A DNA stretch of 30,900 bases from a virus, in the IMG/VR virus record IMGVR_UViG_3300025941_000074, positions 1-30,900 of that record. One strand, written 5' to 3'. The translations under genes and the position numbers were made by a program. A model generated the notes under the pieces. The model was not told the origin of the DNA. It saw only the letters and a list, made by a program, of their open reading frames with translations, and did no database searches. Below are positions 6,719 to 20,323 of this stretch, one piece after another. Numbering within the stretch: the stretch's first letter is position 1; each line of letters starts with the position of its first letter.

Positions 6719-6822
6719 TCCGCACAGCCCTCCTCCTCGCCTGCCTCGTTGGTCTGGCGCTTGGTGCCGCCCACCTGCTCGCGCGAGGGGATGCGGACGA
6801 TAGCGATTGGGCGGGGGCGTGA
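6715..6822 (+). CDS. Very small membrane or secreted peptide
   Basis: The 35-residue peptide starts at GTG 6715 (GTGA overlap) and ends overlapping the methylase start (TGATG). It is MIRTALLLACLVGLALGAAH followed by an acidic tail. The hydrophobic core with a Cys at residue 10 looks like a signal-anchor and loosely like a lipoprotein signal. Overlaps at both ends support translation. Function unknown. Confidence 0.55.
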   Translation: MIRTALLLACLVGLALGAAHLLARGDADDSDWAGA

Positions 6823-7490
6823 TGGCTGCCTGGCCTTTCGGTGACCTGCCTCGGGGCGGGTTCGGGTGCATCTACGCGGACCCGGCGTGGCGCTTTGCGA
6901 CCTATAGCGCCAAGGGCCGTGGGCGGTGTCCTGATGGCCCGGCGACCAACGAGCGCCGCAACTTCATCGACGGCGCGAACAACCGCCCCGAACGCCATTA
7001 TGAGACCATGATGCTGGACGAGATCAAGGCGCTCCCGGTCGCCGATCTCGCCGCGCGCAATTCGGTGCTGCTGCTGTGGGCCGTCGATCCGATGATTCCA
7101 CAAGCGCTCGAAGTCGGCAAGGCGTGGGGTTTCACGTACAAGACCGTCGGCTTCTATTGGGCAAAGCTTCGCCGCGAAACCTCGCTGCGCGCGCGGGACA
7201 TGCACGAGCCCGAGCACAAGCTGTTTCCGATGGGCACCGGCTATTGGACGCGCGCCAATCCCGAGTGCTGCCTCCTCTTCACCAAGGGCTCGCCGAAGCG
7301 GCTCAGCGCCAGCGTGCGCAAGCTGATCGTGTCGCCGCGCCGGGAGCATAGCCGCAAGCCCGAAGAGGCATACGGCCATATCGAGCAACTGGTCGGCGGC
7401 CCCTATCTCGAATTGTTCGCCCGCACCGCCCGCCCCGGATGGGAATCATGGGGCAACGAAGTCGGCAAGTTCGACGCGGAGGCAGCATGA
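6822..7490 (+). CDS. MT-A70-family DNA adenine-N6 methyltransferase (orphan)
   Basis: The 222-residue product carries the MT-A70 core. The catalytic motif is DPAW at residues 20-23 (usually DPPW), inside IYADPAWRFATYS. It is followed by VLLLWAVDP, a strand-turn with GFTYKTVGFYWAKL, and a C-terminal GPYLELFARTARPGWESWGNE, the usual SAM-pocket end of this family. It should methylate adenine in DNA using S-adenosylmethionine. No restriction partner is adjacent, so protection of phage DNA or regulation is likelier than a restriction-modification system. ATG 6822 is preferred over an earlier ATG because it overlaps the preceding stop. Confidence 0.88.
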   Translation: MAAWPFGDLPRGGFGCIYADPAWRFATYSAKGRGRCPDGPATNERRNFIDGANNRPERHYETMMLDEIKALPVADLAARNSVLLLWAVDPMIPQALEVGKAWGFTYKTVGFYWAKLRRETSLRARDMHEPEHKLFPMGTGYWTRANPECCLLFTKGSPKRLSASVRKLIVSPRREHSRKPEEAYGHIEQLVGGPYLELFARTARPGWESWGNEVGKFDAEAA

Positions 7491-11203: not shown

Positions 11204-12663
11204 TGGCGACCAAGGCACTCACCGCCGAAGACTTCGCCTTCTCGCGGCTCATCGCCTACGCCGCGTTCCAATGGCCTGACTATCGCGACGCGCCGCACCA
11301 CCGGCTGATCGCGCGCCATCTGGAGGCCGTCGAGCGTGGCGAGATCAAGCGGCTGATGATCACCATGCCGCCGCGCCACGGCAAATCAATGCTCGCCAGC
11401 GAGTTTTTCCCGGCTTGGTATCTCGGGCGCAACCCGGATCACTACGTCATCACCGCGACCTATGCCCAGGAACTCGCCGACGATTTCGGGCGCAAGGTCA
11501 AGAACCAGATCGAGGACGCGGCCTTCCGCACGATCTTCCCCGGCGTTGGCCTGAGCGGCGACAGCAAGGCCGCAAAGCGCTTCCACGTCGAGGGGGCGCT
11601 GGGCGGTGTCGAGCACGTCACGACGCAAAAGGGCGCGTTCTACGCGGTCGGCATCGGCGGCCCGCTGACGGGTCGCGGCGCGCACCTGCTGCTGATCGAC
11701 GACCCGGTAAAGAACCGCGAGGAAGCCGAGTCAGAGGTCATCCGCCGCAAGACGCGCGATTGGTACACCTCGACCGCCTACACCCGCCTGATGCCCGGCG
11801 GGCGCATCGTCGTCATCCAGACCCGCTGGCACGAGGATGACCTGTCCGGGTGGCTGCAAGCCGAGCACGGCCACGAGGATTGGACGATCCTCGACCTGCC
11901 CGCGATCAACGACAACGGCGAGCCGCTTTGGCCCGAGCAATACCCGCTGGAGGAGCTGGAGCGCATCAAGCGGGCGCTTCCCCCTCGCGACTGGTCCGCG
12001 CTGTACCAGCAGCAACCGAGCCCCGAGACGGGCGACTATTTCCGGCGCGAGTGGATTCACCCGGTCGACCACGTACCGCCGCGCGAATCCATGTCGATCT
12101 ATGGCGCCAGCGACTACGCCGTCACCTCGGACGGCGGCGATTACACCTGTCACGTCGTCATCGGCATCGCCAGTGACGGGCGCATGTACCTGCTCGACCT
12201 GTGGCGCGAGCGGGCATCGTCGGACGTGTGGGTCGACAGCTTTTGCCACCTCGTGCGCAAGTGGAAGCCAATCGGCTGGGCGGAGGAAACGGGCCAGATC
12301 AAGTCCGGCATCGGCCCGTTCCTCACCAAGCGCATGCTCGAAACGGGCAGCTACACCGCCCGCGAGCAATTCCCGACGCGCGGCGACAAGGCGGTCAGGG
12401 CACAGTCGATGCGCGGGCGCATGGCGATGGCCGGGCTTCACGTCCCCCGCGATGCCCCGTGGCTGACCGACTTCATTACCGAGCTGATGCACTTCCCGGT
12501 CGGCGTGCATGACGACCAGGTGGATGCAATCGGCCTCGCCGGACAGTTGCTCGACCGCATGGAGATGGGTCGCAAGCCCAAGGAACAGGCGCGAGCCCGC
12601 CACGCACCGGCCATGGTCGCTGACGGCGTGATCGCCCCGCCGCTTCGGATGCCGGGGCGATGA
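11200..12663 (+). CDS. terL: Terminase large subunit
   Basis: The 487-residue protein is the DNA-packaging ATPase-nuclease. The Walker A PPRHGKS is at residues 57-63 and the Walker B LLLIDDP at 163-169. A motif around TRWHEDDLSGWL follows the ATPase. The C-terminal RNase-H-fold nuclease shows ASDYAV near residue 300 and HDDQVDA near 455, with acidic residues for metal binding. It is of full length. It overlaps TerS before it and the portal gene after it by ATGA junctions. Start ATG 11200 could equally be ATG 11203. Whether packaging is headful or site-specific cannot be told here. Confidence 0.95.
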   Translation: MMATKALTAEDFAFSRLIAYAAFQWPDYRDAPHHRLIARHLEAVERGEIKRLMITMPPRHGKSMLASEFFPAWYLGRNPDHYVITATYAQELADDFGRKVKNQIEDAAFRTIFPGVGLSGDSKAAKRFHVEGALGGVEHVTTQKGAFYAVGIGGPLTGRGAHLLLIDDPVKNREEAESEVIRRKTRDWYTSTAYTRLMPGGRIVVIQTRWHEDDLSGWLQAEHGHEDWTILDLPAINDNGEPLWPEQYPLEELERIKRALPPRDWSALYQQQPSPETGDYFRREWIHPVDHVPPRESMSIYGASDYAVTSDGGDYTCHVVIGIASDGRMYLLDLWRERASSDVWVDSFCHLVRKWKPIGWAEETGQIKSGIGPFLTKRMLETGSYTAREQFPTRGDKAVRAQSMRGRMAMAGLHVPRDAPWLTDFITELMHFPVGVHDDQVDAIGLAGQLLDRMEMGRKPKEQARARHAPAMVADGVIAPPLRMPGR

Positions 12664-15080
12664 GCGTGGAAACCGATCTCGAGGAAGCCGACAGCTTCAA
12701 GGGCGACGGCGACAGCAAGCCCAAGTCGAGCGCATCGGTGCTGGCAGCGCTGCGCAAGGCCGAAGATGCGTTCCGGCCGTGGCAGACGACGTGCGACCTG
12801 ATCGACCGCATCTACAACCTCGACGGCTATCTCGACGGGTTCGGGCCGGACTGGGGGAGCTGGAAGGACAGCGAACTGGACCTGTTCTGGGCCAGCTTCG
12901 AAATCCTCAAGCCCGCGGTCTATTCGAGGCCACCCCAGCCCGTCGTTGCCCCGCTGTTCAAGGACGGTGAGGCGATCATGAACGTCACCGCCGAGATGCT
13001 GGAGCGCTGCGCCATTTCGGTGTTCAAGCGCACGGGCATTGACGACGTGATGCTTGGGGCGCGGGATGACCTGATCTTCGCCGGGCGCGGGCCTCTCTGG
13101 GTCCGCCACGAGGTCGAGAAGGGCAAGCACGCCGTCTGCGTCGAGCATAAGGACCGGCTCGACTTCCTCCACGAGCCGGCCCGCAAATGGTCCGAGGTCG
13201 GCTGGGCTGCAGGTGCGGCATGGCTGACGCGCAAGGAAATGCGCGCGCGCTTCCGCAGGACCAGCGGCGATGCGTACCAACGCGCGCAATATACGCTCTA
13301 CCGGGGCCGCGACGACGGCGACAACGACCGCGACCTTGAGAAGCGCGCCGCGACGCGCAAGGCCAAGGTCTGGGAGGTCTGGCACAAGGCCGACAGCCGC
13401 GTCTACTGGGTGACGGACGGCTGCGACGTGTTCCTCGATGAAGGCGAACCGCACCTTGAGCTGTCCGGCTTCTTCCCGTGCCCCAAGCCAGCCTATGCGA
13501 CGCTTCGCCGCCGGTCGTTGATCCCCGTTCCCGACTGGGAGCGCTACGCCGTCCACTTCCGCAAGATCAGCGAACTGACGCGCCGCATCTACTCACTGCT
13601 CGATGCGGTGAAGATGAAGGGCATCGTTGCCGGTGGCGGGGATGTGGGCGACGCGATCGAGGCCGTTCTCAAGGACGACAGCGACGAGATCATCATCCCC
13701 GTGCCCGGCGCCGCATTGCTGGCACAAGGCGCAACGCCGCTGGTCGTGTGGCTGCCCCTCGCCGAGATCGCGACCGCGATTCAGGGGCTGATCGAGGCCC
13801 GCGGGCAGCTTATCCAGGACTTCTATCAGCTCTCCGGCATCTCCGACATCATGCGCGGCGCCACGGAAGCCGAGGAGACGCTAGGGGCGCAGGAACTCAA
13901 ATCGCAATACGGTTCGGTGCGCGTCCGCGAGAAGTCGTGCGAGCTGCAGCGCGTCGCCGCCGATGCGGTCAAGATCGCCGCCGAGATCATCGCCGAGAAG
14001 TTCCCGCAGGACCAGATGCTCGAAATGTCGGGCATGACGATTCCGACCCGCGCCGAGCTTGAGCACAAGGTCAAGGAACTCGAAGCCGCGGCGCGCAAGG
14101 AACTGCACGAACTCGGCGAGAAGGCCAAGCAGGCCGCCGCGCAACAGCCGCAACAGCCGCAACAGGGCGGGCAGCAGGGCCAGCAGATCGACCCGGCACA
14201 GGCACAGCAGGCGTTCGAGCAAGCGCAGCAGCAGATCATGGCCAAGTACGCGCCGCAGCTTGCCCAGATCGAAGAGCAAGTGCCGATTGAGGACGTGATG
14301 AAGCTGCTGCGCGACGACCGCGCCCGCGGCTTTGCGTTCGAGATCGAAAGCAGCTCCACCATCCTCACCGACGAGCTTGCCGAGAAGCGCAGCCGCAACG
14401 AGTTCATGGGCGAGTTTTCGAGCGCTACGCAGTCATTGCAGGGCCTCATGGCGATGGGCGAGCCGGGCGCCAAGCTTGCCGGCGCGATGCTCAAGTTCGT
14501 GCTGGCGCCGTACCGCGCGGGCCGCGAACTGGACGGGGCGATAGACGAGTTCATCGACGCGGCGCCCGAGATGGCGGCGAAGGCCGCGGCTGCAAGCGGC
14601 GAGAGCGACGATCTGGCGGCGGCCAACAAGATGCTGGGCGAGGCCGAACTGGCCAAGGCGCGCGCCGCAACGATGAAGGTGGAAGCCGACGCGCGGAACG
14701 ACCAAGCCGAGATGCAGCGCAAGATGGCCGAACTGCAGCAGAGCGCCTTTGCCGCGCAGATGAAGGGGCAGCAAGAGAACGCGAAGCTCAAGGGCCAGCT
14801 TACCGAGCAGGCCGCGAAAATCCACCTCATGGAAGCGCAGACCGCGCAAATCCTCCACGCCATCGGCCTAGATGTCCGCAAGCAGGACTTGGCCGAATAC
14901 AAGTTCGTCGCCGACGAAAACCGCGCTGCGGCCGACCAGCAGATGCAGCAGGTCGAGATGCAGCAAGGCGTCGAGGATCGCGAGACGGAGAACCAGTTCC
15001 GCGAGCGCGGCGAAGAACGCGCCGATCGGCAGCAAGACTTGTCCGAGCGCACGGCATTGAATGGAGGCGGGGATGCCTAG
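12660..15080 (+). CDS. Portal protein, P22-like, with long barrel extension
   Basis: The 806-residue product is a large portal of the podovirus (P22) type. The crown and stem region holds the ISDIMRGATEAEETLGAQEL segment and the helix that follows (YGSVRVREKSCELQRVAADA) at about residues 393-438, which is characteristic. The C-terminal 280 residues are Gln/Ala/Lys-rich coiled helices, including a run of QQPQQPQQ, as expected for the barrel that extends into the capsid. It forms the dodecameric ring that binds TerL during packaging and the tail adaptor later. It overlaps TerL (ATGA) and the following gene by 8 bases. Confidence 0.93.
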   Translation: MSVETDLEEADSFKGDGDSKPKSSASVLAALRKAEDAFRPWQTTCDLIDRIYNLDGYLDGFGPDWGSWKDSELDLFWASFEILKPAVYSRPPQPVVAPLFKDGEAIMNVTAEMLERCAISVFKRTGIDDVMLGARDDLIFAGRGPLWVRHEVEKGKHAVCVEHKDRLDFLHEPARKWSEVGWAAGAAWLTRKEMRARFRRTSGDAYQRAQYTLYRGRDDGDNDRDLEKRAATRKAKVWEVWHKADSRVYWVTDGCDVFLDEGEPHLELSGFFPCPKPAYATLRRRSLIPVPDWERYAVHFRKISELTRRIYSLLDAVKMKGIVAGGGDVGDAIEAVLKDDSDEIIIPVPGAALLAQGATPLVVWLPLAEIATAIQGLIEARGQLIQDFYQLSGISDIMRGATEAEETLGAQELKSQYGSVRVREKSCELQRVAADAVKIAAEIIAEKFPQDQMLEMSGMTIPTRAELEHKVKELEAAARKELHELGEKAKQAAAQQPQQPQQGGQQGQQIDPAQAQQAFEQAQQQIMAKYAPQLAQIEEQVPIEDVMKLLRDDRARGFAFEIESSSTILTDELAEKRSRNEFMGEFSSATQSLQGLMAMGEPGAKLAGAMLKFVLAPYRAGRELDGAIDEFIDAAPEMAAKAAAASGESDDLAAANKMLGEAELAKARAATMKVEADARNDQAEMQRKMAELQQSAFAAQMKGQQENAKLKGQLTEQAAKIHLMEAQTAQILHAIGLDVRKQDLAEYKFVADENRAAADQQMQQVEMQQGVEDRETENQFRERGEERADRQQDLSERTALNGGGDA
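14142..14165 (+). repeat. Low-complexity CAA/CAG-CCG repeat in the portal gene
   Basis: A tandem 9-bp unit (CAACAGCCG) is repeated here and encodes the QQPQQP run. It is the most likely spot in the window for repeat-length variation. It sits in the flexible link between the portal stem and barrel. Confidence 0.6.
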
Positions 15081-16842
15081 CGGTCCCGCCGTCACCCTGG
15101 TCGCGTTCGGCGGCCTGCCCATCATGCCCGTAGATGACGGCGCGCCGCTCATGTCGCGCGTGGATAGCGGGGGCATCGCCGTCAGCTATTCGGCCACAGG
15201 AACGCCCTTCGTTGTCGAGGGCGGCATCACGCCGCCGGACCAAAACCCGGCGACCGCGCGAGATAGACTGATCACGAGCGCGGACGGGCTGAACAGCTAC
15301 AGCACCAACTTCACGCTCACCTACAACAGCCTGGTCGTGAAGCTCTACGCCATCAACGGCAGCGACACCGTGCCCACGGTCGCGGCGACGTTCGACGGTG
15401 TTGCCATGACACAGATCGGGCTTGAGGCCGAAGCCGTAGCGGGCACCAGCGTTGTCGCCGCCTTCGCGCTTCGCGGCGCCCATGCCGGGACAAAGGCGCT
15501 GGCGATCACCACCACCGGTGGCTCGCTGGGCTTTGGCGCGCTCCGCATCACCGAAGTTGCCGGGCTTACCTCGGACTGGGCTGCGAACGCGCACTGGACC
15601 GGCCCTGAGAACGATATTGCAGGCTTGGACGACGTTATCGAGGTCGATGCGCCCGATGGGCCAGCGGCCGGCGCGGCGATCGTTTCAACCATCGCCGGCT
15701 GGGCCGACTGGACCGCCTACCCCATCGACCCGCGGTATAGCGACACCGAACAATGGGCCAATTCCCACCTGTTCAGTTCGGATAAGAGCGCGGCGTGGCG
15801 GTTCGGCTATGCGCTCAGCCCATCGGGCGAAGGCAGCAACCTCTATCGGTTCGATTCCGACAATAGCAGCCTCTTCTCGCCCAACGGCGCCGTGTTCCAG
15901 TTGAAGGGTGCTAGCATCACCACCATTGGCACGGCTTGGACCTCGCAAGCCTCCGCCGCCGATGTCCAGTGGTTCGATGTGGCGTGGGCGCCGAGCCTGA
16001 ACCTGTTCTGCGCCGTAGCGCTCACCGGCACGAACAACGGCGTGATGACCTCGCCTGATGGCATCACCTGGACGACGCGCGTCCCCGCCGCGAACAATGC
16101 GTGGCGAGCCATCTGCTGGTCGCCGGACCTGTCGCTGTTTGCCGTGTCGGGCTCTACCGGAACGGGCAACCGGTTGATGACCTCGCCTGATGGGATCAAT
16201 TGGACGATACGCACCAGCACCGCCGACAATAGCTGGGTCGACATCGCTTGGTCGCCGTCGCTGGCGCTGTTCTGCACCGTGGCGCAGTCGGTCAACCGCG
16301 CCATGACCTCGCCAACGGGGGTCACCTGGACGCAGCGCACAACGGCGTCATCGGCGACTTGGACCTCGATCTGTTGGGCCGACACGCTTGGCATGTTCGT
16401 CGCGGTCGGCACCAACGCGGTGCAAACATCGGTCAACGGCACGGCATGGGTACTGCAGACGGCTCAGACCGGCACCTGGACCGCGGTTACATGGTCGCAC
16501 GAATTGGGCCTGCTGGTCGCGGTCGCCTCGGGCACCGCGCCATCGGCATCCATGACTTCTCCGGACGGCGTGACGTGGACGCTCCACACTGGCGCCATCC
16601 CGACCGGGGGATGCACTGGCGTCACTTGGGCGGCGTCAATCGGGCTGTTCGTGGCGACCTCGACCGCTTCCACCAATTCGATTTGCACGTCGCCGGACGG
16701 CATTTTCTGGACCCGCCAGACCACGCCCACATCGCTGAACAGCAGCACGTGGCGAAACCTCTGCTGGTCCCCGCAACTGAGCAAGCTCGTCGCCGTGGCT
16801 TCGGCCGGGACAGCCGGACATTTCGTGATGAGTGCACCGTAA
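15073..16842 (+). CDS. Virion-associated protein with C-terminal seven-bladed beta-propeller
   Basis: The 589-residue product begins MPSGPAVTLVAFGGLPIM; ATG 15073 has GGAGG five bases upstream. Residues up to about 280 are beta-rich and unassigned. From about residue 290, seven repeats of roughly 40 residues follow the pattern W-x-x-(I/V)-x-W-(S/A)-x-x-L-x-L-F-x-x-V ... MTSPDG-x-x-WT-x-R. The repeat cores begin WFDVAW, WRAICW, WVDIAW, WTSICW, WTAVTW, CTGVTW and WRNLCW. A WTSQ strand before the first repeat and the missing terminal WT strand in the last indicate closure of the ring by the N-terminal strand. It lies between portal and scaffold, so a head-surface or portal-vertex protein, perhaps for binding a cell surface sugar, is likely. 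Confidence 0.8.
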   Translation: MPSGPAVTLVAFGGLPIMPVDDGAPLMSRVDSGGIAVSYSATGTPFVVEGGITPPDQNPATARDRLITSADGLNSYSTNFTLTYNSLVVKLYAINGSDTVPTVAATFDGVAMTQIGLEAEAVAGTSVVAAFALRGAHAGTKALAITTTGGSLGFGALRITEVAGLTSDWAANAHWTGPENDIAGLDDVIEVDAPDGPAAGAAIVSTIAGWADWTAYPIDPRYSDTEQWANSHLFSSDKSAAWRFGYALSPSGEGSNLYRFDSDNSSLFSPNGAVFQLKGASITTIGTAWTSQASAADVQWFDVAWAPSLNLFCAVALTGTNNGVMTSPDGITWTTRVPAANNAWRAICWSPDLSLFAVSGSTGTGNRLMTSPDGINWTIRTSTADNSWVDIAWSPSLALFCTVAQSVNRAMTSPTGVTWTQRTTASSATWTSICWADTLGMFVAVGTNAVQTSVNGTAWVLQTAQTGTWTAVTWSHELGLLVAVASGTAPSASMTSPDGVTWTLHTGAIPTGGCTGVTWAASIGLFVATSTASTNSICTSPDGIFWTRQTTPTSLNSSTWRNLCWSPQLSKLVAVASAGTAGHFVMSAP

Positions 16843-16863
16843 TTTAGCAAGGGAGTCAACGAC

Positions 16864-17301
16864 ATGGTAGCCAATGCGAACAGGTTCGTGGAGCTGGGCA
16901 TGGTCCCGGAACTCGCGACCGAAGTGAAAGCGCAGATCGACGCCAATCTCCCGGTCACGCCGGATTCGATCGTCAACGCCGACATCAACTCGGCCGCGGC
17001 GATCGACCTGTCGAAGCTGGCCACCGGCTCGTTGCCGAGCGGGATCAAGGTCGCGCACGCCAACATTACGGCCGGCACCATCGTCAATGCGGACATCAAT
17101 GCGTCGGCGGCAATTGCCAGCACGAAGCTGTCCTCCACCACTGCGGTAGCGGCGCTGGTCGCCTTGACCGACAACAGCGGTGGCACGCCGAGCGACACCA
17201 TCCCCGACGTGCCCGGCAGCTATACCGAGGCGACGCTCGCCAACCAGATCGCGTCGCTGACGACCAAGATCAACGCGATCATCGCGGCGATCAAGACCTG
17301 A
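16864..17301 (+). CDS. Short fibre-like structural protein (head-fibre type)
   Basis: The 145-residue product holds two copies of an IVNADINxxAAIxxxKL unit (residues ~36-52 and ~73-89). It ends in SYTEATLANQIASLTTKINA IIAAIKT, a heptad-like helix suited to a trimeric coiled coil. The DNSGGTPSDTIPDVPGSYTE linker before it is common in phage head-fibre and small fibre proteins. GGGAG precedes the ATG. It follows the beta-propeller gene, and the two may form one accessory spike on the capsid; that link is inferred. Confidence 0.75.
   Translation: MVANANRFVELGMVPELATEVKAQIDANLPVTPDSIVNADINSAAAIDLSKLATGSLPSGIKVAHANITAGTIVNADINASAAIASTKLSSTTAVAALVALTDNSGGTPSDTIPDVPGSYTEATLANQIASLTTKINAIIAAIKT
16969..17130 (+). 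repeat. Two 51-bp diverged repeats in the fibre gene
   Basis: Bases 16969-17019 and 17080-17130 both encode IVNADIN-x-(A/S)-A-A-I-x-x-x-KL. They keep the same frame and are 111 bp apart. The DNA has drifted mostly at third positions, so this is an old internal duplication. Confidence 0.7.
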
Positions 17302-17304
17302 GCC

Positions 17305-17685
17305 GTGCCGCTGTACGACTTCCGATGCGGCGAGGGCCATCTGTTCGAGCGGATGGTCCCGCTTGCCCGCTTCGCCGAGCCCCAGCTTTGCGAGTGCGGC
17401 TCGGCGACGCAGCGGCTCGTCTCGGCGCCTCGGCTCGCCCCCACGGACGCAATCGAGCCGATCCGGGGCGCTGACGGCAAGATGCACGACAGCCTGTCCG
17501 GCTATCGTCGCACGCTCGAGCCCGGGGGCAACCCAAAGGGCGAACGCTACCTCGAGATCGGCAACGAGGAAATGCCCGTCGTGACCAAGGACTTCGACCG
17601 CAAGCAGCGGCGCGACGACATCAAGGCCGGAATCGAAGACGTGCGCAACGGGCGGGTTCCGCCTCCTGTCGCGCTGGAGATGTGA
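17305..17685 (+). CDS. FmdB-like zinc-ribbon protein
   Basis: The 126-residue product begins MPLYDFRCGEGHLFERMVPL and continues with a CECG pair near residue 33, the CxxxH...CxCG pattern of the FmdB-type zinc ribbon. The rest is polar and helical. The start is GTG 17305, which alone gives the family's MPLYDF(R)C opening. Similar proteins are frequent in phage head-gene clusters next to the scaffold. Its role there is unknown: assembly factor or minor component. Confidence 0.8.
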   Translation: MPLYDFRCGEGHLFERMVPLARFAEPQLCECGSATQRLVSAPRLAPTDAIEPIRGADGKMHDSLSGYRRTLEPGGNPKGERYLEIGNEEMPVVTKDFDRKQRRDDIKAGIEDVRNGRVPPPVALEM

Positions 17686-17686
17686 C

Positions 17687-18910
17687 ATGGACCTGCAAGA
17701 GCCCCTTTCCACCACGCTCGACACCGAAGCGACCCCGAGCGCGTCCGGGGGCGGGATGCCGTCGCTCACCGAGCCCGAGGCGACCAAGCCCGAGGCCAAG
17801 CCGGAAACCGCTCGCGAGTCCATTCAGGCGGCGCTGCGCGAAACCGAGGACAAGGCGCTCGGCGAGGCGGAAAAAGCCGAACAGGCAGCCAAGGATGCCA
17901 AGGCAGAGAAGGTCGCCGACAAGCCCGCAGCGGACGGCAAGGAAGCGAAGGCAGAGCCCGAGGCCAAGGAACCGGCCAAGGTCGCCGAGACGCCCGCGAA
18001 AGCCGCTCCCGAGGCCGGAGAGGCCGATGCGGACGCGACGGATGCCGAGAAGGCCGGCGAGCGCACCGAGGCACGCAGCACGCGCGGAGAGCCGCCGCGC
18101 AACTTCCTGCCCGATAGCCGCGAGGTCTGGCGCAACGTCCCCAATGTCGTGAAGCGCGATATCGAGACGATGGCGCGCGACCATGCCGCCGAGATCGAGC
18201 ACCACCGCGCCGCGTCCGAGCGCTATTCGCAGATCCGAGATTTCGATGAACTGGCCAAGTCCAACGGGCGCGAATTGCGCGACAGCCTGACCAAACTGGC
18301 GCAGATCGAGCACCAGATGAAGACGAGTCCGTTGACGGCGCTCAACAGCATCCTGATGGAAGTCGGGCCGCGCAAGGCCGACGGGCAGCCGGTTTCCATC
18401 CGCGAAGTCGCGCAGTTCGTCATGTCGCAGACCGATGAAGGCTATCAGCGGCTCATGCAGCAGGGCCAGCCGCAACAGCAACAGCCGCAGGTCGATCCCG
18501 AGGTCGCCCGGCTCAAGCAGCATGTCGCCGATCTGGAGACGCGGATGGTGACGGCGAGCATCATCCAACCCTTCGCCGACAAGCACCCGCGCTATCAGGA
18601 ACCGCAGATTCAGACCGATATTGCAATGTTCCTGAAAAGCGATAGAATATCCCAGAGCATGAGCCCGTCTGATCGACTGGCGGCGGCTTACGAAATGGCT
18701 GTGCGGATCAACCCCGCCTCCAGTTCCGTAACCATCGACCACTCCGCGGACGCCATGCCCGAACGCCGCGCTGATAACGACTTCGGCGGCTCCAAATCCA
18801 TCAAATCATCGCCTGGTTCAGTGACGGAAACCGTCGAGGATCAGGCTAAGGGCGGCGAAACGGCCCGGGAAAGCATCCTGGCAGAGTTGCGGCGCCTTAA
18901 CCGAGCTTGA
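17687..18910 (+). CDS. Capsid scaffolding protein
   Basis: The 407-residue product is highly charged and low in complexity, with an Ala/Glu/Lys-rich N-terminal 130 residues. The central coiled-coil-prone region (LAKSNGRELRDSLTKLAQIE) is followed by a Gln run (QQGQPQQQQPQVD), and a basic terminal helix (ESILAELRRLNRA) suited to coat-protein binding. It has no cysteine-rich or enzymatic motif. Its position directly before the major capsid gene, together with this composition, is the standard signature of a scaffold that guides procapsid assembly and is then expelled. Confidence 0.85.
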   Translation: MDLQEPLSTTLDTEATPSASGGGMPSLTEPEATKPEAKPETARESIQAALRETEDKALGEAEKAEQAAKDAKAEKVADKPAADGKEAKAEPEAKEPAKVAETPAKAAPEAGEADADATDAEKAGERTEARSTRGEPPRNFLPDSREVWRNVPNVVKRDIETMARDHAAEIEHHRAASERYSQIRDFDELAKSNGRELRDSLTKLAQIEHQMKTSPLTALNSILMEVGPRKADGQPVSIREVAQFVMSQTDEGYQRLMQQGQPQQQQPQVDPEVARLKQHVADLETRMVTASIIQPFADKHPRYQEPQIQTDIAMFLKSDRISQSMSPSDRLAAAYEMAVRINPASSSVTIDHSADAMPERRADNDFGGSKSIKSSPGSVTETVEDQAKGGETARESILAELRRLNRA

Positions 18911-18922
18911 GGAGCCCGACCC

Positions 18923-19933
18923 ATGTCGATCAACAGCGATCGCAATTATGGCCAGCTTCTGACCGCCGCCACCGCGCGGCGCAGCAAGGCCATCCAGGAT
19001 ATCGTCTACAATTCCACCCCGCTGACCCGCATCCTTCGCAACGAAGGCCGCATCAAGGTCAAGCGTGCCGGCGGCCCCGAGCTTCGGATTCCGGTCCAGT
19101 TCGACAAGCTGACGGCGCAGTGGTTCACCGGCTACGACAAGATCGAGATCACGCCGCAGGAACTGCTCAACTCGGCCGTGTTCAACTGGTCGCGCGTCGT
19201 CGGCATGTTCTCGCTGAACGGCACCGAGCTGCTTTACACGCGCGGCGAGGAGGAGCTGGTCGACCTCATGGAGTTCTACATGGACTCCGCCGAGAAGGCC
19301 GTGAAGGAGACCTTTGAGGTCGGCATGGTCGGCGACGGCACCAGCGACGGCGGGCGCCAGATGATCGGGCTGGGCGGGGCGATCCCCATCCTGCCGAACA
19401 CCGGCATCTATGGCGGCATCGACCGCGGCACCGTGACCGAATGGCGCACCAGCACCTTCGATATCCCGAACGGCGACGTGCTCAGCTATACGACGTGGGA
19501 CTCGACCACGGCGCGGCCGATCATCGAATATATCTCGCTCGCCCGCTCGCGGAACGGCCGGTACGCCGACCTGATCATCGCCGACGCGCTCAGCTATGCG
19601 CCTATTTCCGCATCGTTCGTCGCGCACCAGCGGCTGGCGTCGGAACGGCTCGCCAAGCTGGGCTTTGCCGGCCTCACCTACATGACCCCGGCTGGTCCGG
19701 TGGACATCGTGGCGGCAGGCGGCATCGGCAATGTCATGCCGACCAGCACCTTCTTCGGCATCGACACCGAAGGGCTGAGCATCTGGGAGTTCCCGGGTCA
19801 GCAGTTCGTGCCGTTCCATCCCGGCAACGGGCTTCGTCCGATCAACCAGGATGCGGTTGCGCAGGGCATCGTGTGGTCGGGCCAGCTCGTGCTCGAAAAC
19901 CCGCTGTTCAGCTACCGCGGCATCACGATCTAA
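18923..19933 (+). CDS. Major capsid protein (HK97-fold type)
   Basis: The 336-residue product has the usual pattern of a phage coat protein: an N-terminal helix-rich arm (YGQLLTAATARRSKAIQDIV), and a spine helix region (EEELVDLMEFYMDSAEKAVKETFEVGM). This is followed by a beta-rich P-domain that includes GIGNVMPTSTFFGIDTEGL, ending in LVLENPLFSYRGITI. GAGGAG lies about nine bases before the ATG. It follows the scaffold by 12 bases. Hundreds of copies would form the icosahedral shell. Family-level call is firm from context; the specific subfamily is not named. Confidence 0.9.
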   Translation: MSINSDRNYGQLLTAATARRSKAIQDIVYNSTPLTRILRNEGRIKVKRAGGPELRIPVQFDKLTAQWFTGYDKIEITPQELLNSAVFNWSRVVGMFSLNGTELLYTRGEEELVDLMEFYMDSAEKAVKETFEVGMVGDGTSDGGRQMIGLGGAIPILPNTGIYGGIDRGTVTEWRTSTFDIPNGDVLSYTTWDSTTARPIIEYISLARSRNGRYADLIIADALSYAPISASFVAHQRLASERLAKLGFAGLTYMTPAGPVDIVAAGGIGNVMPTSTFFGIDTEGLSIWEFPGQQFVPFHPGNGLRPINQDAVAQGIVWSGQLVLENPLFSYRGITI

Positions 19934-19948
19934 CCAGGAGCGAGGACC

Positions 19949-20323
19949 ATGACTGTATCGACCACCACCCCGTTCCGGATGAACCCGAGCCTCGGGCCGG
20001 ACCTCAACCAGGTCGTGAAGAAGGATCAGGTCTGGTACGCCGGAGCTGGTCGCGCCGCGGCCGGTGCCGGGCAGATCGCCAGCCCGCAGCTCGGCGACAC
20101 GGCGTTCGGCGACAATGGCCGCGAATATATGTGGGTCCAGGCGTCGGCGACCATTACGGTCGCCGCTGACCCGGGCACGCAGGTTGCCGTCACCGTCACC
20201 GCCCCGGACAACATCACCGTGGCGACCGGCTCGGGAGGTTGGTATGCCCCGCATACTGGCTTCTATTCGGGCACGCTCGTCTCGGGCGACCGCTTCTGGG
20301 TCGCCAAGGGCACGGCGCCGTAA
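19949..20323 (+). CDS. Small head protein, probable capsid decoration
   Basis: The 124-residue product is beta-rich, with the stretch ATITVAADPGTQVAVTVTAP and a C-terminal YSGTLVSGDRFWVAKGTAP. Size, composition and position directly after the coat gene fit a decoration or cement protein that stabilises the expanded shell. GAGGA precedes the ATG. It is followed at once by a strong hairpin. No family is recognised with certainty. Confidence 0.75.
   Translation: MTVSTTTPFRMNPSLGPDLNQVVKKDQVWYAGAGRAAAGAGQIASPQLGDTAFGDNGREYMWVQASATITVAADPGTQVAVTVTAPDNITVATGSGGWYAPHTGFYSGTLVSGDRFWVAKGTAP

Follow-up and report, generated by a model that had tools for sequence, protein, structure and literature searches.

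The window, i.e. the whole 30.9-kb IMG/VR virus fragment that we have analysed, carries the genes of the small and large terminase subunits, followed by those of the portal, a propeller protein, a fibre-like protein, an FmdB-type protein, the scaffold, the major head protein and the tail; separate tail-fibre and collar genes are located at its right end. The features that are discussed here are collected in Table 1. The matches to PHROGs and TIGR02605 confirm what an earlier note on this DNA had read from the sequence, namely that the propeller gene is located in the head module, with the portal gene upstream, the scaffold gene downstream, and the fibre-like and FmdB genes adjoining it. The start codon at 15073 has GGAGG upstream and gives an overlap of 8 nt with the portal stop; the alternative in-frame ATG at 15061 is a less likely start. 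The host is probably an alphaproteobacterium, since the portal protein has its closest bacterial relatives in genomes of Sphingomonadaceae, Chelativorans, Devosia and Acetobacteraceae.

Table 1. Features of the portal-scaffold region, in window coordinates.
Feature	Position	Strand	Basis and remarks
Portal protein (phrog_12082)	12660..15080	+	PHROGs; upstream edge of the variable slot
Anchor - β-sandwich - seven-bladed propeller protein, 589 aa	15073..16842	+	
N-terminal anchor, residues 1-50, five repeats of ~10 aa (GxPVxxV)	15073..15222	+	HMM, period-10 test, AF2
β-sandwich, residues 63-165, carbohydrate-binding-module-like	15259..15567	+	BLASTP, phmmer, AF2, Foldseek
Linker region, residues 166-285	15568..15927	+	AF2 pLDDT mostly below 50
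Seven-bladed β-propeller, residues 286-589, velcro closed	15928..16839	+	
Head-fibre-like protein	16864..17301	+	
FmdB-type zinc ribbon and phrog_21669 domain	17305..17685	+	TIGR02605 above cut-off, PHROGs
Scaffold/virion structural protein (phrog_25516)	17687..18910	+	PHROGs; downstream edge of the slot
Major head protein (phrog_9953)	18923..19933	+	PHROGs

Elsewhere in the window, an MT-A70-type adenine methyltransferase gene (PF05063, E 3.4e-22) is located at 6807-7490, and the major head protein gene is followed by a 124-aa gene (19949-20323) that matches phrog_26298 (virion structural) and, weakly, the profile of an N4 gp52-like protein (E 0.08). The gene at 21804-23762 matches phrog_5107, which is labelled "amidase, lysis"; the label is probably wrong, since the gene occupies the tail-tube/nozzle position and its homologue in Rhizobium phage RHph_I3_18 is annotated as "neck protein". 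A PDB profile search with its product has returned no match.

The C-terminal domain of the 589-residue protein contains six SPxGxxW-type motifs, at residues 327, 371, 413, 453, 496 and 540, with a spacing of 40-44 residues, while the seventh motif is split: its "...FVMSAP" part is located at the C terminus and its "GTAWTSQ" part (residues 286-292) at the start of the domain. Most relatives of the propeller have the same arrangement, i.e. six whole motifs and the split motif at the domain ends. At a lag of 44 residues, the self-identity of the propeller is 0.227, whereas none of 500 shuffles exceeded 0.163. In the AF2 model (30 sequences; the propeller alignment was built without the short anchor proteins), residues 286-589 form seven four-stranded blades with a pLDDT of about 93, and the ring is closed in the velcro manner: strand 290-292 joins strands 559-588 to form blade 7, with the N-terminal strand completing the last blade. 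The best Foldseek matches are all propellers (WD40, YCF48 and streptogramin B lyase; E about 1e-10). The seven repeats with a velcro-type closing strand that the earlier note had described are borne out by the motif spacing, the lag-44 test, AF2 and Foldseek, and the structure prediction that it had proposed for the propeller residues has returned a closed seven-blade ring. The seven-bladed fold and the Asp-box-like SPDGxxW motif are shared with the YCF48, WD40 and BNR propellers, but the identity to the best Foldseek matches is only 9-17%; the SPDGxxW motif lacks one residue relative to the canonical Asp box. No Pfam or NCBIfam model matches the window's propeller, no BNR, sialidase or kelch profile matches the 589-residue protein, and the PDB sequence searches with the propeller, anchor, nozzle and MCP profiles have returned no significant matches.

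Correct about the propeller, the earlier note had missed the two elements that precede it, i.e. the anchor and the β-sandwich. The anchor consists of five "GxPVTxV" repeats of about 10 residues, and its 10-residue period is seen in a lag-10 score of -0.29, against -0.74 for the best of 500 permutations. Residues 1-285 were not resolved in the first AF2 run, whereas in the second run, with anchor homologues, residues 1-50 were resolved well and residues 63-165 moderately: the anchor is predicted as five short strands (pLDDT about 90), and the β-sandwich, with a pLDDT of about 72, is matched by Foldseek to the sugar-binding domain of EclA (E 5e-4) and, more weakly, to CBM35/36.

In the sampled relatives, the gene that follows the portal gene often encodes a stand-alone protein of 49-68 aa, made of GxPVTxV repeats. 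We have trained an HMM on 19 of these stand-alone slot proteins only and used it to search the 19,511 ORFs on the two strands of all sampled loci. The anchor is matched in 45 of the 75 complete slots, a proportion that is not a genome-wide rate, as the loci were chosen for a portal or a propeller and include near-duplicates; all 47 mappable matches are located inside the slot. The 589-residue protein, which is absent from the training set, is matched at its N terminus with an E of 1.6e-7. Five repeats occur in nearly all members of the anchor family, with only three or four being recognisable in one sub-group (L016, L105 type), and searches of Pfam, PHROG, NCBIfam and PDB have returned no match for the family.

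Two deviations from this arrangement have been observed at the portal end of the slot. In one strain of Sphingopyxis terrae, seen three times (L005:9801-12218, also L107 and L138), the portal frame continues into anchor repeats 3-5 (EEGAPVLTEVETGGIAVTLTEGATPVIIEHLPTP); the fusion is perhaps a prophage deletion, and we have rejected it as proof that the anchor docks on the portal. At two other loci (L104:11345-11599 and L135:8345-8599), the anchor gene is missing and the portal gene is followed instead by that of an 84-aa protein (MADTFTTQMNKTNPATTHFAVVPDDEDDF...), possibly an alternative decoration.

The cargo that follows the anchor varies from slot to slot: a Laminin_G_3 domain (L184), a GDSL/SGNH esterase (Lipase_GDSL_2; L149), a protein of ~1040 aa with an Ig domain, the sequence of which reads by eye as β-helix-like (L108), and further domains without assignment (L165, L020, L203). 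The window's own β-sandwich recurs behind the anchor in a 378-aa protein (L156; E 2e-7 when the two sequences are compared by BLASTP, 1.5e-4 by phmmer over the 19,511 ORFs). The portal protein of this last locus is 87% identical to those of two other loci (L147 and L199) and its anchor 62-64%, but the slot proteins of the latter are only about 60 aa long; since these loci share portal and anchor and differ in cargo, the sequences indicate that the anchor is kept while the cargo behind it is gained, lost or replaced.

The second slot gene (16864-17301) encodes a protein with a conserved N-terminal helix motif (RFVELGMVPELATEVKAQI), a variable middle part and a C-terminal coil. The motif, RLxELGMVPxLAxEVAxQI, is found in 61 of the 75 complete slots, with one match elsewhere, while the rest of these proteins is variable, ranging from short coils up to proteins of 451-1042 aa. 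Some relatives of the protein are matched by head-fibre models: four of 14 second-gene relatives match phrog_6994 (head fiber protein; best E 2.3e-12), and PF11133 (Phage_head_fibr) matches one of the 14 that were aligned (E 1.9e-4); the window's protein itself has no Pfam match. The best PDB match of the second-gene profile, weak at an E of 0.06, is gp45 of Schitovirus B2 (PDB 9d82), a trimeric capsid decoration (PMC11654681). Like the head fibres (PF11133, B2 gp45, phi29 gp8.5), the window's protein is the product of a small head-region gene, with a short N-terminal part and a C-terminal coil (of the NAIIAALK / AAALVAAGLM type); unlike them, it falls below the Pfam models, and some of its relatives reach 450-1040 aa. 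As far as can be judged from sequence, these matches favour a location on the capsid. Large cargo occurs in the second gene at three loci, behind one to three copies of the N-terminal motif (L202:9805-12933, L196:9489-12002 and L200:6448-7803), in two of them with an esterase domain, of the SASA type (L196) or the lysophospholipase type (L200). At a further locus (L008:2503-2763), the motif is present three times in the second slot gene, and the next gene, which is collagen-like, starts with the same motif.

The earlier note had grouped the propeller, the fibre and the FmdB gene into a three-gene cassette. Other portal-family loci have not upheld this grouping, which we have rejected: the propeller is found in the portal-adjacent slot of the window only, among all portal-family loci sampled, while the anchor recurs, as does the fibre-like gene. 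The zinc ribbon of FmdB is present in some relatives and absent in many, while its C-terminal domain (phrog_21669) is located beside the scaffold in nearly all of them; because this domain is there irrespective of the cargo, the FmdB-type gene counts, on gene content, as a core gene outside the adhesin.

Although confined to one of the slots, the propeller is common among phages. Direct searches of the IMG/VR viral contigs with the 589-residue protein alone or with one anchor have returned no matches, but alignment-based queries have yielded at least 510 confirmed propeller candidates. Elsewhere, its carriers have many different N termini, including those of Dit, Gp37-like, fibre and other tail proteins, and distant copies are found in Stenotrophomonas phage RAS14, Xanthomonas phage XacN1 and Synechococcus phage B23. 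DUF6242 is matched by 18 of 51 members of the propeller family, and no Pfam family covers this propeller as such. In Synechococcus phage B23 (MN695335; L018:6001-6936), the propeller ORF is open on the plus strand over two hypothetical genes annotated on the minus strand, gp328 and gp329, which are likely misannotated. The range of carriers, many of them tail proteins, suggests that the propeller is a widespread display domain of phages. Promiscuous Ig-like domains, e.g. those of Hoc, are similarly appended to many kinds of virion protein, from tail fibres and Dit to the capsid, and are thought to aid weak surface binding; the likeness lies in one domain being carried by many virion proteins, and the difference in the domain being here a seven-bladed propeller. 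The putative capsid protein of phAss-1 has a predicted C-terminal β-propeller behind Ig-like domains, at about residues 900-1666 (PMC10607447); going by that description, the propeller is there part of the capsid protein itself and no such anchor is reported.

The anchor HMM also matches proteins of two cultured phages, both encoded at the tail-fibre end of the genome: EVC14_023 of RHph_I3_18 (E 9e-9), encoded after the endolysin gene, where the anchor is paired with a second, different propeller (BNR_4), and gp25 of Paracoccus phage KLEP18-1 (E 9e-8), encoded after the tail fibres, where it is paired with fn3. The latter is annotated in its record as "structural protein", an annotation for which our literature search has found no paper. 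These two genes indicate that adjacency to the portal is not required, and thus that the position of the gene does not fix the position of the protein in the virion.

The reading that we favour, at a probability of about 0.68, is that the portal and scaffold genes flank a modular display locus with swappable cargo, where an anchored adhesin is paired with a neighbour of the head-fibre family. We favour it because an HMM trained on stand-alone anchors finds them in the slots and, independently, in the 589-residue protein, because the cargo is swapped, because the relatives of the second gene include head fibres, because the propeller is carried by tail proteins, and because gp25 of KLEP18-1 is labelled structural. 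Weighing against it are the fibre-like protein that Pfam does not match, the two anchors at tail ends, and the anchor repeats at the portal C terminus of Sphingopyxis terrae; the portal C terminus lies inside the head in P22-like portals. In the proposed mechanism, the five-repeat anchor would dock the protein on the particle, the lectin-like β-sandwich would form its middle part, and the exchangeable tip, here the propeller, would bind a glycan of the host surface or capsule, or another surface ligand, and so help adsorption, with the head-fibre-family protein displayed beside it. The anchored protein would be a virion component, for which the capsid surface is the most likely site, at somewhat better than even odds, and the tail or portal vertex a less probable one. 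The adhesin system that the earlier note had proposed is well supported as an adhesin locus, by the anchor with its lectin and enzyme cargo and by the head-fibre-related neighbour, but the site that it had named, portal vertex or capsid, does not follow from the position of the gene, given the tail-end anchors.

It is possible, though less likely, that the slot gene encodes an ordinary receptor-binding protein of the tail or portal vertex, of the tailspike type, the gene of which has moved beside the portal gene and the anchor of which binds the portal/adaptor complex. Such a protein would account for the esterase, lectin and β-helix-like cargo, which is typical of tailspikes, and the slot proteins do have the tailspike-type layout, i.e. 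an N-terminal anchor and an exchangeable receptor-binding or enzymatic C terminus; the overlap with the preceding portal gene, the tail-end genes of RHph_I3_18 and KLEP18-1 and the portal-anchor fusion of one prophage (Sphingopyxis) point the same way. Yet the window has tail-fibre and collar genes of its own, the neighbouring gene is related to head fibres and, unlike tailspikes, the anchor of 49-68 aa is kept by many phages without cargo.

The location of the gene between portal and scaffold, together with the fusion in Sphingopyxis terrae, would also suit an assembly factor associated with portal or scaffold inside the procapsid, with the cargo as passengers without a surface role; we consider this improbable, as lectin, esterase and propeller cargo makes most sense outside, some anchored genes are located far from the head genes, and the fusion is a single event, found in one strain, where an internal ATG could still yield a separate product. 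Very improbable, in our judgement, is a moron site with cargo for lysogenic conversion or secretion that is not built into virions: the content of the slot is variable and several relatives are prophages, but the proteins share one N-terminal anchor and have no evident signal peptide, their genes lie on the same strand among overlapping late genes, a secreted function is not obvious for the stand-alone anchors, and the homologue in KLEP18-1 is annotated as structural.

Within the display-locus reading, the number of anchor repeats brings to mind the head spike of RcGTA, where a pentameric base (Rcc01079) and one head fibre (Rcc01080) are located at the capsid vertices; N-terminal hydrophobic repeats, described as a five-point star, fix the single fibre chain to the pentamer, and the fibre binds the polysaccharide capsule of the host (PMC7296036). 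The present anchor has five N-terminal repeats too, a likeness by description that suggests a five-fold docking on the capsid, but the repeats of RcGTA are of about two residues each, while those described here are of about 10 residues and form strands. By this analogy, which we offer tentatively and hold rather unlikely, the anchor would be a single-chain five-fold adaptor, one copy of which would bind each of the five subunits that make up a capsid vertex or a pentameric base, so that each vertex would carry one cargo protein, swapped by recombination; this would be a head-display system used generally by podoviruses of alphaproteobacteria.

Modular virion proteins that combine an anchor with cargo are already known as a kind; as far as the libraries and the literature that we have searched show, the anchor family and its slot are undescribed, as are the association of the family with head-fibre-like genes and the wide occurrence of the propeller as a display domain. 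If the five repeats do match a five-fold vertex, the symmetry trick of RcGTA would have a second, longer example in the anchor. More generally, the seven-bladed propeller, unannotated so far, appears to be a common display domain of phages, and the new anchor family marks a fixed slot where alphaproteobacterial podoviruses would exchange their surface cargo, giving a handle on host recognition by phages that are mostly uncultured.
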